Positions 38,866-48,880 of a stretch of DNA of 59,771 nucleotides are shown piece after piece. The translations under genes were made by a program, and so were the position numbers. The stretch comes from Desulfuromonas acetoxidans DSM 684 (GTDB lineage Bacteria; Desulfobacterota; Desulfuromonadia; Desulfuromonadales; Desulfuromonadaceae). The first letter of the stretch is position 1; each line of letters begins with the position of its first letter. The notes under the pieces were generated by a model that was not told where the DNA came from, did no database searches, and was given only the letters and a program-made list of their open reading frames with translations. The stretch lies in assembly GCF_000167355.1 (NCBI RefSeq), contig NZ_AAEW02000021.1:1-59771 (forward strand). The letters run 5' to 3'.

Positions 38866-39972
38866 ATGTGTCGAATTGGAGCAATTAAAAGTAAAAATTA
38901 TACCCACCCGAGTAAAGCCCTGCAGTTAATGCAATCTCAGCAAAAAGGGCACGACAACTCTGGGTTTGCCATGGTCATGCAAGACCTGGGCGGTATTTTT
39001 GAGGGCTACAAACATCTGCCCACCCTGTCTATGGCCTGTACCGATGAGGGTCTGAATCTGGCGGAAAACATCTTGCACGAAGCCGGCTTTCGCCGCGTTC
39101 TGCAATGGGTGCCTGACACCTTCCCCAGCGACGAACTCGACATCAATGCGATGCCGAACTACGTGTTTGAGACCTTCAGCTACCCCAAAAGCTACAAACA
39201 TGCCACCCAGGAAGAGAAAGAGGAACTGCTGCTCGACATGCGCCTGAAAATGCGCGCCGCGCTGGAGCCGGATGAGCAGGGATTCGTTTACTCATTCTGG
39301 CCGGACGTCGTTACCCTGAAAGAGATTGGCGATCCGCGCGATATTGGCACATTCTTCAACTTGTGGCAGGAAGACGAAAATTTTACCGCCAAGGTCATTA
39401 CCGCCCAATGTCGTCAGAACACCAACTACGACATCGTGCGCTATGCGGCTCACCCGTTTTTCCTCCAGGGATATACCGGACTGGCCAACGGCGAGAACAC
39501 ATTCTACCAGAAGAACAAGGAGATGCAGGCCAAGCTGCACCGCGGCTACATCGGCTTTGAATCGGATTCGCAGTGCTTCCTCTACAGCCTGCACTACATC
39601 CACCGCCAACTGAAATGGCCACTGCAGTACTTCAAGCACGTCATCACGCCCCTGCCATTCGATGAGCTGCAGAGCCGTGACGATGCTGACCAGCTGCGCT
39701 CCATCCGTCAGTCCCTTGCTCACCTGGAGATTAACGGACCAAACACCATCATCGGTGTGCTGCCGGACAACACACTGTTCACCTGCTGCGACGCTAAAAA
39801 ACTGCGTCCGGTTGTTCTTGGCCAAACCGAGGACACCATCGCTATCGCTTCAGAAGTATGCGGCATTAACGAAATCCTGCCGGATCGTGAATGGTCGACT
39901 GATATTTACCCCAACGAACGCGAAATCGTCGTGATCAATGATGAGCTGGAGGTTGCACGATGGAAACAGTAA
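38866..39972 (+). CDS. Glutamate synthase, class II glutamine amidotransferase subunit
   Basis: 368 residues from the ATG at 38866, which has GGAGG nine bases upstream and makes Cys2 the first residue after methionine removal (MCRIGAIKSK), as N-terminal-nucleophile amidotransferases need. The ATG at 38860 would bury it. Contains GHDNSGFAM and a GLANGENTFYQKN-type glutamine-pocket region. It releases ammonia from glutamine for the FMN subunit encoded next. Separate amidotransferase subunits are typical of the archaeal-type glutamate synthase also found in deltaproteobacteria. Overlaps the next gene by 13 bases. Confidence 0.88.
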   Translation: MCRIGAIKSKNYTHPSKALQLMQSQQKGHDNSGFAMVMQDLGGIFEGYKHLPTLSMACTDEGLNLAENILHEAGFRRVLQWVPDTFPSDELDINAMPNYVFETFSYPKSYKHATQEEKEELLLDMRLKMRAALEPDEQGFVYSFWPDVVTLKEIGDPRDIGTFFNLWQEDENFTAKVITAQCRQNTNYDIVRYAAHPFFLQGYTGLANGENTFYQKNKEMQAKLHRGYIGFESDSQCFLYSLHYIHRQLKWPLQYFKHVITPLPFDELQSRDDADQLRSIRQSLAHLEINGPNTIIGVLPDNTLFTCCDAKKLRPVVLGQTEDTIAIASEVCGINEILPDREWSTDIYPNEREIVVINDELEVARWKQ

Positions 39973-41603
39973 AAATACAGGACATCACCCCCAATGACCT
40001 GCCGTGGAAGCTACGCTACGACGCCAGCCGCTGCACCCTGTGCGGCTCCTGCGTTGCGGCCTGTTCTTTCCGCGCCATCGAGCCGAAAATCGAGCGTCGT
40101 CGCATGGTCTTTTCCGAAGGCGACCTGCCTGATCCGCGTGCCCGCTTCTCCGCGGTGCCGGTAATCCAACAGGTCAACTCGCTGAAAAACTACTGCCGCG
40201 GCTGCGGTATCTGCGAAAAGGTGTGCCCTAACGACGCCATTGCCCCAGTGCGCAATCCGGATACGCGCCACCCCATCGTCACCCGCTGCAGCGGTGGTGA
40301 CTCGATCAAACGTGGCGGTCGTAAAAACCTTACCGGCAGCACCCGTACCCTGGACCAACTGCGCGTTGGCCGCATTTCGCAAATGACCGACCCAAGCCTC
40401 GATGCCCAGCGTCACACCTTTGACATGCTGGCCCCCTTCGGTCGCATTCTACCTGCCGACGAACTGTCCATGACATTGGACAGCAGCGGCAAGCTGGTCA
40501 ACAACGCTCAGACACCGCCAGTCAACTGGATCTATCCGGTGATCATTGGCGACATGTCCATTGGCGCGTTGTCGTGGCGGATGTGGGAAGGCGTGGCTAT
40601 GGCCGTCGCTTACCTCAACGAGGAATGTGGCCTGCCGGTGCGCATGTGCTCCGGTGAAGGTGGCGTTCCGATGCGTTTACTCACCAGCAAATATCTCAAA
40701 TACTTGATCCTACAGGTCGCCTCCGGCCACTTCGGCTGGAACCGGATCATCAAAGCCATGCCACACATGGTGGAAGACCCGGCCGGTGTCCTGATCAAGA
40801 TCGGCCAGGGCGCCAAGCCCGGCGACGGCGGTCTACTTCAGGCGCAGAAAGTAGCCGAACATATCATGGCCATTCGCGGGGTTCCCAAAGCCGACCTGCT
40901 TAGCCCACCGAACCATCAGGGCCTCTACTCCATTGAGGAGAGTGTTCAGAAGATGTTCCTGTCGTTCAACGCGGCATTCAAATTCCGAGTTCCGGTGTCC
41001 ATCAAGGTAGCGGCTTCAGCGACCAGTGTTTCGGTGTTCAACAACCTGGTCCGTGACCCTTACAATATCGTCGGCGGTTTCTTCCTCGACGGTATCGATG
41101 GCGGTACCGCAGCAGCCCACGAGGTCTCTCTTGACCACACCGGCCATCCGATCGTCAGCAAGCTGCGCGATTGCTACCTTGCGGCTGTCACCCAGGGACG
41201 CCAGGGGCAGATCCCACTGTGGGCTGCCGGCGGACTTGGCAAAACCGGCGATCTGGCGGCAGATGCCTTTAAAATGATGTGCCTTGGTGCCAACGGCGTG
41301 TTCAGCGGCAAGCTGATCCTGCAGATGGCCGGCTGTGTCGGCAACGACCTCGGTCGCTGCAATGCTTGTAACACCGGCCTGTGCCCGGCAGGAATCACCT
41401 CGCAAATCCCGGCGTTGGCCCACCGTCTCGATCCGGAAAAGGTTGCCGAAAACATCGTCAACTACTTCCTGGCCATGGACCAGGAGCTGAAAAAGCTCAT
41501 GGCTCCTATCGGCAACTCCTCGCTGCCCATCGGTCGCTCCGATGCACTGGTCGCCATGGATAAAGCCGTCGCCGATCGCCTGCAAATCCAGTACGTGTGT
41601 TAA
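39960..41603 (+). CDS. Glutamate synthase, FMN-binding central subunit with ferredoxin domain
   Basis: 547 residues. N-terminal double-cluster ferredoxin (CTLCGSCVAACSF and CRGCGICEKVCPN, about 22-90), then the FMN barrel of glutamate synthase: GDMSIGALSWRMWEGVA, GEGGVPMRLL, KIGQGAKPGDGG, DGIDGGTAAAHEVSLDHTG, and the iron-sulfur loop CVGNDLGRCNACNTGLCP. It catalyses reductive transfer of ammonia to 2-oxoglutarate. The ferredoxin and iron-sulfur loop accept electrons from the third subunit or from ferredoxin. Follows gltB1 with overlap and precedes the GXGXG/GltD fusion by 11 bases. Confidence 0.92.
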   Translation: METVKIQDITPNDLPWKLRYDASRCTLCGSCVAACSFRAIEPKIERRRMVFSEGDLPDPRARFSAVPVIQQVNSLKNYCRGCGICEKVCPNDAIAPVRNPDTRHPIVTRCSGGDSIKRGGRKNLTGSTRTLDQLRVGRISQMTDPSLDAQRHTFDMLAPFGRILPADELSMTLDSSGKLVNNAQTPPVNWIYPVIIGDMSIGALSWRMWEGVAMAVAYLNEECGLPVRMCSGEGGVPMRLLTSKYLKYLILQVASGHFGWNRIIKAMPHMVEDPAGVLIKIGQGAKPGDGGLLQAQKVAEHIMAIRGVPKADLLSPPNHQGLYSIEESVQKMFLSFNAAFKFRVPVSIKVAASATSVSVFNNLVRDPYNIVGGFFLDGIDGGTAAAHEVSLDHTGHPIVSKLRDCYLAAVTQGRQGQIPLWAAGGLGKTGDLAADAFKMMCLGANGVFSGKLILQMAGCVGNDLGRCNACNTGLCPAGITSQIPALAHRLDPEKVAENIVNYFLAMDQELKKLMAPIGNSSLPIGRSDALVAMDKAVADRLQIQYVC

Positions 41604-44335: not shown

Positions 44336-46078
44336 ATGGTGAAAAGAACACTAGGTCTGATCCTGGTCGCTCTGATGCTCCTGCCCGCAGGCGCATTTGC
44401 AGCACCCTCGACAGCAGATCTCGCCCGTCAGATCGACATGCTGACCAAGCAACTGAGCGATCTGCAGGAGCAACTGAACGAAGTTCAAGACACAACTTAT
44501 GACAATGCCGATTCCGTTGAGCTGCTGGAAACCAGCGCTGAAAAATGGGACGAGCACAGCCGCTTTGAGTTCTTTGGCGACTACCGCTTCCGCATGGACT
44601 ACAGCGACACCGACACCGAAGCATACTGGGGTGCTGGCGAAGTAGCCAGTGCCATGGCAGTTATGGTTGGCGATGGTTTCAGTGTGGACCAAGTTCTCGG
44701 CATGATGAACAGCGTATCTGCTGCAGACCGCCAGTTCCTGATGGAAAACTTCAACATCGTTCGCAGCGTCGGTTACAGCATGGATCCTGCAGTTGTTGGT
44801 CCGGCCATGATGGCATGGGATCCCGCAGTAGCCACGGGGTATGAAATGACCCCCAAGAACAACTATGAGAATGACATTCTCTACACCAACCGCTTCCGCC
44901 TCGGCATGAAAGCCAAGATCTCCGATCAAATGGAGTTCAAAGGTCGTCTGGCCATGTACAAAGCTTGGGGTATGCAGTCTAACCCGACCTCCAATGGTCC
45001 TTACTTCATGAACTCCTTCACTGAGATGGATGGTGCGACCACCCGTCAACCTTCCGACAGCATTGTCCGTGTTGACCGTGCTTACATCAACTGGACCGGC
45101 ATCGCTGATCTGCCGATCTGGTTCTCCGTTGGTCGTCGTCCGACTACCGATGGTCCCCCGGCGCACCTGCGTATGGGTACCGGCAAGCGCATGGCAACTC
45201 CGGTTAACTTCATGGACTATGCCTTCGACGGTGCAACTCTGGGTGCCGTATTCAACAATCCCTTTGAATTCATGGGTTACAGCAAAATCCGTTTCTGCTA
45301 TGGCCGTGGTTTCGAAGCAGGCCCGACCGAAACCAGCAACGAACTGGACGACATGGACTTCGGTGGTCTGAGCTGGGACATCATCAACAAAGGTCCCCGT
45401 TTCATGAACATCCAAGCCTTCCTGGCTGCCAACATCATCAACGTTCCTGATGGCGTTACCTTCGCTAACCCGATGGAATTGGCCATGAATGATGTTCTCG
45501 GCACCAACTTTAACGGTACCCTGGACCAAGAAAACCTTGGTGACATCTACCACATCTCTACCGTCTACATGGACAAAGCTGCCGACCTCAACTACTTCAT
45601 CGCAGGTGGTTGGAGCCGCACTGACCCTGATGGTGTTGACGAGATGGGTTCCACCCTGCTCGGTTCCTGGTGGGAAGATCCCGGCCAGAAAGACGGCTAC
45701 TGCGTCTACGGCGGTGTCCGCTACGACATGGATGACTACGGTCTGAAGTTCGGTCTTGAGTACAACTACGGCACCAAGAACTGGATCTCCATGACTCCGG
45801 CACACGACGACATGACTCAAGCCAAACTGGCGACTCGCGGTCACGTTGGCGAAGCGTACCTGATTTGGGACCTGCCTGTTGGCAACCTGCTCAGCAGCAA
45901 GACCAAAGCCTTCATGCGCCTCGGCTACCAGCACTACGAGTACGAGTACACTGGCAGCGGCAACTGGCTGGGTGCCCCGGCTGACATTGACGAGCTGAGC
46001 GACCCTCTCAAGGCCCAGTTCTTCGCTCCGATCGACAGCATGGACCAAGTTTACCTGACCATGGAAGCGTTCTTTTAA
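44336..46078 (+). CDS. extI: ExtI-like outer-membrane porin (DUF3373 type)
   Basis: 580 residues. Signal peptide (MVKRTLGLILVALMLLPAGAFA), then a coiled-coil segment (about 26-60, IDMLTKQLSDLQEQLNEVQ) and a long beta-barrel region ending in an aromatic residue (MEAFF). It resembles the DUF3373 porin-like proteins of Geobacter Ext conduits; ExtI of G. sulfurreducens has been reported as a selenite-uptake porin. The assignment rests on layout porin - small secreted protein - multiheme cytochrome. Codon choice is strongly biased, as for an abundant protein. Strong AAGGAGG ribosome site. A 585-codon antisense frame is a shadow. Confidence 0.75.
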   Translation: MVKRTLGLILVALMLLPAGAFAAPSTADLARQIDMLTKQLSDLQEQLNEVQDTTYDNADSVELLETSAEKWDEHSRFEFFGDYRFRMDYSDTDTEAYWGAGEVASAMAVMVGDGFSVDQVLGMMNSVSAADRQFLMENFNIVRSVGYSMDPAVVGPAMMAWDPAVATGYEMTPKNNYENDILYTNRFRLGMKAKISDQMEFKGRLAMYKAWGMQSNPTSNGPYFMNSFTEMDGATTRQPSDSIVRVDRAYINWTGIADLPIWFSVGRRPTTDGPPAHLRMGTGKRMATPVNFMDYAFDGATLGAVFNNPFEFMGYSKIRFCYGRGFEAGPTETSNELDDMDFGGLSWDIINKGPRFMNIQAFLAANIINVPDGVTFANPMELAMNDVLGTNFNGTLDQENLGDIYHISTVYMDKAADLNYFIAGGWSRTDPDGVDEMGSTLLGSWWEDPGQKDGYCVYGGVRYDMDDYGLKFGLEYNYGTKNWISMTPAHDDMTQAKLATRGHVGEAYLIWDLPVGNLLSSKTKAFMRLGYQHYEYEYTGSGNWLGAPADIDELSDPLKAQFFAPIDSMDQVYLTMEAFF

Positions 46079-46123: not shown

Positions 46124-46357
46124 ATGAAAAAAATGATCGTTTTGATGGCTACTGCTGCATTTATCGGTGGCCTGAGCTGCGCTGCTTTCGCCGGTGTTAA
46201 AGGCGAAGTTGTTAAAGTACGCGGCAGCAAAGTAACTGTAGAAGTATCCCGCTCTGACGCTAAAGACATCTCTAAAGGCGACAAAGTTGAGATGGACGTT
46301 GAAAAAGGTGCTGCTGCAGCTCCTTCCGGCGGCAACGATATGCTGACTGGCTGCTAA
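46124..46357 (+). CDS. extJ: ExtJ-like small secreted protein
   Basis: 77 residues. Signal peptide (MKKMIVLMATAAFIGGLSCAAFA), then a small beta-rich domain (GVKGEVVKVRGSKVTVEV, ISKGDKVEMDVEKG) and a tail NDMLTGC with a terminal cysteine. It sits between the porin and the multiheme cytochrome, the position of extJ in Ext clusters. Function unknown; it may stabilise the conduit or carry a ligand. AAGGAGAAGCAAC ribosome site, and codon use is as biased as in extI. Followed by a terminator-like hairpin. Confidence 0.7.
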   Translation: MKKMIVLMATAAFIGGLSCAAFAGVKGEVVKVRGSKVTVEVSRSDAKDISKGDKVEMDVEKGAAAAPSGGNDMLTGC

Positions 46358-46438: not shown

Positions 46439-47800
46439 ATGAAATCAATCAAAAACATCAGCCTTTCGCTGCTGATCGTGCTGCTCAGCGCCACCTGCGT
46501 CTTCGCCATTGGCGCCGGCGTTGGTCGTGACGGCACCATCGCAGCCACCAAAGGCAAAGCCAAGACCCTGGCAGAGCTGATCGAGATGTATGACTCGACC
46601 GCCTGCATCGACTGTCACGAAGAGATTCACGACGACTGGGCGGCATCTCCCCACGCTCGTCCCATGTACGGCACCGGCCGCACCGCTGCCACCATGATCA
46701 CCGCTATGAAAAACGGTTTCATGTCCTGGGCGTACTCCGGTGTTAATGGTCCGGAAGACGTTAAGGTTGAGCACCTGATGGGCTGCGCCAAGTGCCACCT
46801 GCCGCAACTGGCTGACGCCGAAGACAGCGTTGCCGTTGAGCTGGTTGAAACTCTCAACAGCTGGTATGCCGCTGCCAAAGCCGGCAAAGCTGACGAGCGC
46901 GCCAAGTACGAGGAAACTCTGCTGGCCCTCAACATCAACTGCCTGATCTGTCACAACCGCATGGCCATCACTCACAAGTGGACCGACGGTTATCCGCAAA
47001 GCGATACCGTTTATGGCTTCAACGAAGGTGAGCACGAAGACGAGCACTTCACCAAAATGAAGGTCAGCCCGATCATGAACGAGTCGATCTTCTGTGGTCA
47101 GTGCCACGGTCTCGGCCCCAACTTCGAGCTGGAAAACCCCACCCAGTGCGCCACCCTGTACGGCAGCTACCTGTGGTCTTACACCGCTGAAGGTGGCCAC
47201 GAGCGTTGCCAGGAATGCCACATGGAGAAATCCGGCCTGGGTCACAAGATCCTGAGCTACAGCGATCCCACCATGCAGGAAATGGCTGTTGACTTCGACG
47301 TCGAAGCCTTTGCCACCCGCTGGCGTGATGGCAGCAAGCTGACTCCGAAAACCGTCCTGAAAGTGAAAATGACCAACCGTGCCGGCCACGCAATCCCTGA
47401 TGGCTGACCGACCCCTAACCGACTGGTTCTGTCGGTACGTGCAACAACTGAAGAAGAAGGGGAAATTTTCACCAAAGACATCATCTACATGCCGACGCCT
47501 CAGCAGTTCGGTCGCAGCGACATCATGGGTCGTGGACCTTACGAAAAGAGCGGCATCATCGAAGACACCTGTCTTCCTCCAGGAAAAGAAGTTGAAGAGC
47601 GTTTCGACATCTTCTTCCCCACGGATGACGTAAAAAATGCTGCCGGCAAAATGGTACGAGAAACTCTCGAGCGCGAGATGGACGTCACCGTTGAGCTGTG
47701 GTACCTGCCTTTCGGCAACAAGCGGACTTCTGCTCAATTGTGGAAAGAGTGGGAAGAAACTATCACGATCAAGTCAGATGGTCTTGGTAGCCCGCGCTAA
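46439..47800 (+). CDS. extKL: Multiheme c-type cytochrome ExtKL, selenoprotein (Sec at in-frame TGA)
   Basis: Read through TGA 47405-47407, this is one 453-residue protein; stopping there would give 322. Signal peptide (LLIVLLSATCVFA). Five heme motifs: CIDCH (56-60), CAKCH (116-120), CLICH (168-172), CGQCH (219-223), CQECH (257-261). The TGA falls at residue 323 in RAGHAIPDG-U-PTPNRLVLSV, a GH-x-P-[DT]-G motif typical of cytochrome c554-like multiheme proteins. The frame continues without interruption to 47800 (IFTKDIIYMPTPQQ, FDIFFPTDDVK, LPFGNKRTSAQ). A SECIS-like hairpin follows the TGA. I recall ExtKL being annotated as a (seleno)protein in selenite/tellurite operons, but could not check. 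Predicted periplasmic or outer-membrane electron carrier working with the ExtI porin. Confidence 0.85.
47405..47439 (+). promoter_or_regulatory. Selenocysteine codon and bacterial SECIS-like hairpin
   Basis: TGA at 47405-47407. ACCGAC (47418-47423) pairs perfectly with GTCGGT (47431-47436) around the 7-base loop TGGTTCT. Sixteen bases separate the TGA from the apical loop, and the loop has G at position 2 and a GGU. Both fit what is known of bacterial SECIS elements (loop about 16-37 bases downstream, G among the first two loop bases). The lower helix is weak by eye. A second ACCGAC (47407-47412) could compete for the same GTCGGT. Confidence 0.75.
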
Positions 47801-47821
47801 AAGGCGCTAAAGCAACACTTT

Positions 47822-47857: not shown

Positions 47858-47884
47858 TTTGTGGGCCTCTTTGATCTTCAGTGG

Positions 47885-48880
47885 TTCATCATTCGGAGTT
47901 GATCGCTCTGGCAAACATCATCCGTTCGCAATTTGGATGCGCACGTGACGTGGGCTGGCAGGACGAAACCCGGCGACCTTGGTCTTGACCTTGAGCTTCA
48001 GTGGTTCGTCATTCGGAACTGATCGCGCTGGCAAATTTCATCCGCTCGTAATGTTGGTACGCACGTGACGTGGGCTTCCGCGCCCACACCTCGGGCCACA
48101 TTTTGCGTCGACAAAAGTGGCGCAAAATCGACTCCCGACCATTGCACCCTACGGGTTCCCTCTCTCCATTCTCTTACACCGCGATGTCGGCAAAACTCGC
48201 TAGCGCTCAAACAGGTTGCCGACAACCATCGCGCTGACGTTCATTGCGTTCGGTGCTGCTGAACGGGAGAGCTGGGTTGCACAATAACAAACCCAGACAG
48301 GGTGGCACTGCCCACCCGTTTAATCGGTGCCACGGAAGAAATAGAGTGCAACGTCAAACCGTTATCAACGTTTTACGCCAAAAATGATAAGTTGCACGAT
48401 TCGTCGACCTAAAGGGCGGCGAGCCGAATCTGTGAAGCATCACGGAAGCAGACCCATTGTCGGTGAGTCCAGGTTCAGGAGGTGTTCAAGCTGGCTTTTG
48501 CATACTTTTGAGCGGCCTGTCAAAAGTATGTCGGCTGCCGGGACGAAACCCGGCGACCTTGACTTTAATCTTGATCTTTAGTGGTTCGCTATACGGAACT
48601 GATCGCGCTGGCAAACTTCATCCGCTCGTAATGTTGGTACCCACGTGACTTGGGCTTCCGCGCCCACACCTCGGGCCACATTTTGCGTCGACAAAAGTGG
48701 CGCAAAATCGACTCCCGACCATTGCACCCTTGCGGGTTCCCTCTCTCCATTCTCTTACATCGCGATGTCGGCAAAACTCGCTACCGCTCAGACAGGTTGC
48801 CGACAAACATCGCGCTGACGTTCATTGCGTTCGGTGCTGCTGAACGGGAGAGCTTAGTTGCTAAATAACAGGCCACCCGT
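47885..48880 (-). repeat. Structured interspersed repeat block 3 (B-A-B-b on the minus strand)
   Basis: Reading the minus strand from 48880 down: B about 48868-48575, A about 48570-48305, B about 48290-48000, then a short fusion of an A start (GCCGGGTTTCGTCCTG) with a B end (about 47990-47885). Hairpins of block 1 recur: CATACTTTTGA/TCAAAAGTATG (48501-48530), GCCGGG/CCCGGC (48537-48554), GCCAC(A)TTTTG/CAAAAGTGGC type (48675-48701 and 48095-48121). One B copy has GTGGGC/GCCCAC where block 1 has GCGGGC/GCCCGC. Short open frames here (for example at 48384, 48457 and 48650) are disrupted or shifted relative to block 1. No transposase or other gene in the 1.2 kb from extKL to the DUF4198 gene. Confidence 0.85.

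Follow-up and report, generated by a model that had tools for sequence, protein, structure and literature searches.

The multiheme cytochrome gene extKL of Desulfuromonas acetoxidans DSM 684, divided by an in-frame UGA that is very probably read as selenocysteine

The frame of a multiheme cytochrome gene of Desulfuromonas acetoxidans DSM 684 is interrupted by a single TGA, and the question raised by this locus is whether the codon ends the protein or is read as selenocysteine (Sec). The gene is encoded in a stretch of 59,771 nucleotides (NZ_AAEW02000021.1), referred to as the window. Its frame opens with an ATG at 46439, meets the TGA and continues for 130 open codons to the next in-frame stop, a TAA at 47798-47800. 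The read-through product has 453 residues with U at position 323 and contains five CXXCH motifs starting at residues 56, 116, 168, 219 and 257. A plain listing of open reading frames splits it into products of 322 (46439-47407) and 103 residues (47489-47800). The interrupted five-heme frame and its splitting by gene callers, both pointed out in a preliminary description of the locus, are thus reproduced. The window contains 2,339 TGA triplets when all frames of both strands are counted. An open frame of at least 130 codons comes after 51 of them, and in one case alone, the TGA at 47405-47407, at least 322 open codons also lead up to it. Comparison of the window copy with six relatives gives dN/dS values of 0.10-0.32 past the codons of the hairpin described below and of 0.09-0.16 upstream of the TGA; by these ratios, what follows the TGA and the hairpin codons is evolving as protein sequence. 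The features of the locus are collected in Table 1.

Table 1. Features of the extKL locus in the window, with the evidence for each
Feature	Position	Strand	Basis
DUF3373 protein, probably outer-membrane porin, not ExtI	44336..46078	+	PF11853, E-value 1e-125
extJ, small protein, selenite/tellurite reduction operon family	46124..46357	+	NF040942, 72.6 bits (cut-off 52.5)
extKL, pentaheme c-type cytochrome selenoprotein (very probable), 453 residues, Sec 323	46439..47800	+	NF040886, 598.9 bits (cut-off 250); PDB MccSep
In-frame UGA, very probably read as selenocysteine	47405..47407	+	inferred from sequence
Candidate bacterial SECIS hairpin	47418..47436	+	fold of 26-nt piece; lowest synonymous change in gene

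The read-through protein has been assigned to the NCBIfam family of multiheme c-type cytochrome (seleno)protein ExtKL, which the preliminary description had named, and the pieces on either side of the TGA match opposite ends of this one model. The label "(seleno)protein" suggests that the curators know of non-Sec forms. A profile of 26 homologues retrieved from the PDB, with an E-value of 3e-220, chains deposited under the name "Multiheme cytochrome c selenoprotein" (MccSep). These comprise two distinct sequences across five entries (9wt8, 9wt9, 9wta, 9wtb and 9wtc), one of the sequences being a U325A mutant, and residue 325 of MccSep, the Sec position, aligns with residue 323 of the window protein. 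A literature search for the name MccSep returned only an unrelated neuroscience paper. The part of Fujita 2007 concerned with GSU2937 and GSU2936 of Geobacter sulfurreducens proposes the pair as a selenoprotein candidate and remarks that non-Sec homologues were missing (PMC1914089). The passages on ExtKL in the ExtI paper of 2018 refer to it as a putative selenoprotein (PMC5877670), and the family stands in a table of a 2026 review (PMC13188914). A reading of the gene as an unrecognised selenoprotein family is ruled out by NCBIfam, by the papers of 2007, 2018 and 2026 and by the five PDB entries. The window extKL is a new member of a known, named family with solved structures, and the present result is a correction of a split gene annotation and not a discovery. 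Beyond the 2007 proposal, the current analysis contributes candidates for the SECIS element, namely hairpins in two registers that show constraint and covariation, as well as homologues with Cys or Ile/Val in place of Sec; dispersed and homogenised extKL copies are also added.

Of 136 genomes in the order, 30 encode a match over the family cut-off, as do 40 of the 395 sampled from the phylum. The order search gave 34 rows over the cut-off; one is a fragment, and the other 33, three of them second copies, extend to the site and have TGA there. The phylum search gave 53 rows, three of them shared with the order search; the other 50 comprise 36 with TGA, four with TGT (Cys), two with Ile/Val, one fragment and seven others that have one in-frame TGA each in the table and whose codon lies outside the tally. 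Two of the 36 are under the cut-off: in L160 the TGA is preceded by PDS, and the halves of L161 are in different frames. In all, 75 homologous sites have been read, 69 with TGA, four with TGT and two with Ile/Val. Further 27 loci, all with TGA, overlap with the genomes of the order search and were kept out of this tally. The expectation that Cys or Sec would align at residue 323 therefore holds at 73 of the 75 sites, the exceptions being two tandem paralogues with Ile or Val, and at none of the sites read does the homology end at the TGA.

Four genomes have a Cys copy. A Sec copy has also been read in G412, G162 and G456, and G420 has a second match with one TGA in the table. In G162 and G336, which have tandem pairs, the upstream member is the copy with Ile or Val. 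These paralogues (L156:253-1590 and L145:1450-2763) keep the five hemes and Cys237 and are possible non-selenium carriers. Some relatives have defects, namely an in-frame TAA in the Cys copy L159, an additional TAG in L040/L055 and halves in different frames in L161. Conservation was followed in 76 full-length proteins, all distinct, of which 73 have Sec and 3 Cys. They were chosen by the pattern GHxx[PS][DA]G followed by TGA, TGT or TGC, a choice that makes G316, H317, G322 and residue 323 invariant from the outset; the invariance of the non-heme Cys237 does not stem from it. The strongest conservation surrounds the TGA, which is aligned with the Sec of MccSep and adjoins the invariant GHxxPDG motif. 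The motif reported earlier is present before U323, as GHAIPDGUP, with two residues between GH and PDG and not one.

The genome (3.82 Mb in 51 contigs, 96.5% complete, 1.75% contamination) encodes one selA, two selB and one selD, all over cut-off, and two full tRNA-Sec (selC) genes, both with the anticodon UCA; the four genes proposed as a check on recoding are all found. A third match over the tRNA-Sec cut-off is a tRNA-Trp according to ARAGORN. The selA and selD genes and one selB lie together on contig 16, where selD (39498-40415) has one in-frame TGA and probably encodes a selenoprotein itself.

The second tRNA-Sec and second selB are situated inside a glycine betaine reductase cluster on contig 10 (L078:4649-15587), along with genes for a GrdH selenoprotein, component C alpha and beta, a betaine BCCT transporter, acetate kinase and thioredoxin. 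The SelB of contig 10 shares 58% identity with that of contig 16. Two selB genes are found in only two of 134 genomes of the order, the present one and G030. Their second SelBs share 95.8% identity and are placed outside the clade formed by the remaining SelBs of the genus. This metabolic cluster carries its own Sec decoding genes and has probably been acquired. The occurrence of more than one tRNA-Sec gene is in itself already known (PMC5330540).

A candidate SECIS hairpin has been identified just after the UGA, with a stem of 6 bp, ACCGAC/GUCGGU (47418-47423 with 47431-47436), and the loop UGGUUCU (47424-47430). The 26-nt piece folds into this hairpin at -9.1 kcal/mol, 6 of 200 shuffles being as good; a 51-nt piece from the UGA takes another pairing of unremarkable stability (27 of 200 shuffles as good). 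In 25 order-level sequences the synonymous difference at codons 327-332 is 0-0.08 against a mean of 0.475 elsewhere, and of 394 seven-codon windows the one beginning at codon 327 has the least (0.034; lowest away from the site, 0.276). The sets for synonymous change were chosen by protein identity and by order search. In 47 other sequences the letters after the UGA are again constrained, and the fitting stem, GUGGUC/GACCGC with the loop CUGGAUGU, lies five nucleotides further on. This stem, picked by eye from the same sequences used to score it, pairs in 90.8% of cells against 25-65% for slid versions. Both-side changes occur in three of its six pairs (shuffle mean 0.5; 5 of 500 shuffles reach three), and two of the slid versions have more cells changed on both sides (5 and 6 versus 4). 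The four Cys genes do not retain the hairpin letters. Rfam at gathering thresholds gave 0 matches in the window, its SECIS_1 model matched neither the genome nor any control, and RNAalifold on the codon columns gave no useful consensus. The hairpin just after the UGA is of the kind expected of a bacterial selenoprotein gene, and the candidates in the two sets of sequences stand in two registers after the UGA.

We put a probability of about 0.93 on extKL being the known pentaheme c-type cytochrome selenoprotein, its UGA read as Sec under the guidance of the hairpin. The presence of selA, selB, selC and selD, the TGA or Cys at the site and the solved relatives with Sec all support the earlier suggestion of a selenoprotein, and the UGA is very probably recoded; for D. 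acetoxidans itself we infer this from sequence comparisons. The UGA would be decoded by way of SelA, SelB, SelD and tRNA-Sec, the hairpin right behind the codon guiding the process. The exported ExtKL would carry five c-hemes in its N-terminal part, and Sec323 would close the GHxxPDG motif just ahead of a C-terminal beta-sandwich. The AlphaFold model has a mean pLDDT of 68.5, with residues 212-245, 247-271 and 322-325 under 50. In a fold search against a library reaching to 8 April 2026, the PDB entry 5ze8 came first, the other matches listed were mostly to the beta-sandwich alone, and the MccSep entries were not among the best 50.

The role of Sec323 is a matter of more tentative proposals. 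Speculatively, it may be the chemical site that ends the heme chain, where electrons from an ExtMNOPQS chain could reach a selenium or tellurium oxyanion. Passages of the ExtI paper link the ext cluster to the reduction of selenite and tellurite, and tie the loss of extI to a defect in it (PMC5877670). A fuller account would have a heme-wired selenoenzyme in which Sec323 and Cys237, close to the hemes, act as a redox pair to reduce such an oxyanion, with extKL having left the operon in this genus, its two copies gene-converted, and the SECIS pairing having moved by about five nucleotides across the family; as a whole we regard it as unlikely. Were Sec the working site, ExtKL would be a selenium enzyme that receives its electrons straight from a heme chain, within a selenite-handling pathway.

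Alternatively, Sec is incorporated and Sec323 serves as a structural residue or as a heme or metal ligand, ExtKL being an electron carrier only. We consider this a possibility of real weight, if somewhat doubtful. The two Ile/Val paralogues speak for it, with their hemes and Cys237 intact, whereas the retention of Sec at 69 of 75 sites, in three genomes beside a Cys copy, and its position next to an invariant motif speak against it.

That extK and extL are genes in their own right, conserved together as an operon and divided by a genuine stop at the TGA, is very improbable. UGA is a stop by default, and in the part of Fujita 2007 that deals with GSU2937 and GSU2936 no SECIS is found for the pair and two separate genes are left open as the alternative (PMC1914089). 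Against this, there is no start codon at the TGA, and the first downstream ATG would leave 27 conserved codons unread; conservation is strongest around the TGA; the four TGT homologues are open there as one protein (one has an in-frame TAA further upstream), and the PDB chains span both halves with Sec. A sequencing error or pseudogene mutation, which a draft genome of 51 contigs and the broken copies in the family might allow, is hardly credible and is refuted by the homologues, since 69 of the 75 sites read, that of this genome's second copy among them, have the same TGA, and the remaining frame is under constraint.

With the gene taken as a very probable selenoprotein gene, its setting can be described. 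In the window, extKL follows extJ and the gene of the DUF3373 protein, and the genes ahead of these presumably encode a glutamate synthase, which they resemble. Neither an ExtI match nor any similarity to a true ExtI was found for the DUF3373 protein. The ext genes are found on contig 35, in the form of extI, extM, extN/O, a Rieske protein gene, extP, extQ and extS; extI is next to extM without extKL between them, and no contiguity of extKL with the ext operon was found. The ExtP of contig 35 scores 229.6 bits, under its own cut-off of 290, as does that of Desulfuromusa kysingii (223.3), in which extI, extKL and extM to extS stand together. In the present genome extKL is outside the ext operon; of the operon described earlier the adjacent extJ stands, and the neighbouring porin is not ExtI. 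The inference on the substrate of ExtKL is weakened by this location.

A second extKL is encoded on contig 4 (34557-35855, L018), beside an extJ-like sequence and near genes that we take to encode an ATPase from their resemblance. It differs from window positions 46439-47803 at 12 of 1,365 positions, in two clusters, and the flanks differ clearly. Both settings are also found in G033, G034 and G035, whose ExtP genes lie elsewhere. The two copies within each of these four genomes are 94.8-99.3% identical, and copies of the same setting in different genomes 84-96%, the closest pair of genomes (the present one and G035) giving 95.6-95.9%. In the 330 bases upstream, the copies pair by genome in G033 and G035 and do not in the present genome and G034; homogenisation beyond extKL thus varies between genomes. 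From these identities the copies look homogenised by gene conversion. In the present genome their near identity might be an effect of the assembly; this is unlikely in G033 and G034, which are both single contigs. Copies that are dispersed and look homogenised suggest that dosage or sequence is under selection, which could be tested in relatives with closed genomes.

Contigs 164 and 23 of G030 (L175 and L176) both end inside extKL with identical last 60 bases, as would be expected if two near-identical copies break the assembly. After the window extKL, at about 47880-48075, two similar consecutive non-coding stretches were seen by eye, and similar letters follow the contig 4 copy.

Among the known systems, MccSep is aligned over residues 12-448 of the window protein and these PDB relatives are called selenoproteins by their depositors; it is a different member of the ExtKL family and not the window protein itself. 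The ExtKL of Geobacter sulfurreducens (GSU2937 and GSU2936) matches over the whole length, with five CXXCH motifs and Sec at the same site, whereas the window gene differs in lying outside the ext operon, next to extJ and the gene of a DUF3373 porin, and in being present twice. The pentaheme cytochrome c552 of Thermochromatium tepidum (5ze8) shares about 22% identity with the window protein over the aligned residues, in a comparison made with the model of mean pLDDT given above. More distant pentaheme cytochromes of the same order (L109-L120) resemble ExtKL in their five CXXCH motifs and in a GHKIPTG at the matching place in 12 of 12 fetched; they differ in having Thr or Val after PTG in place of Sec, and they score far under the ExtKL cut-off.
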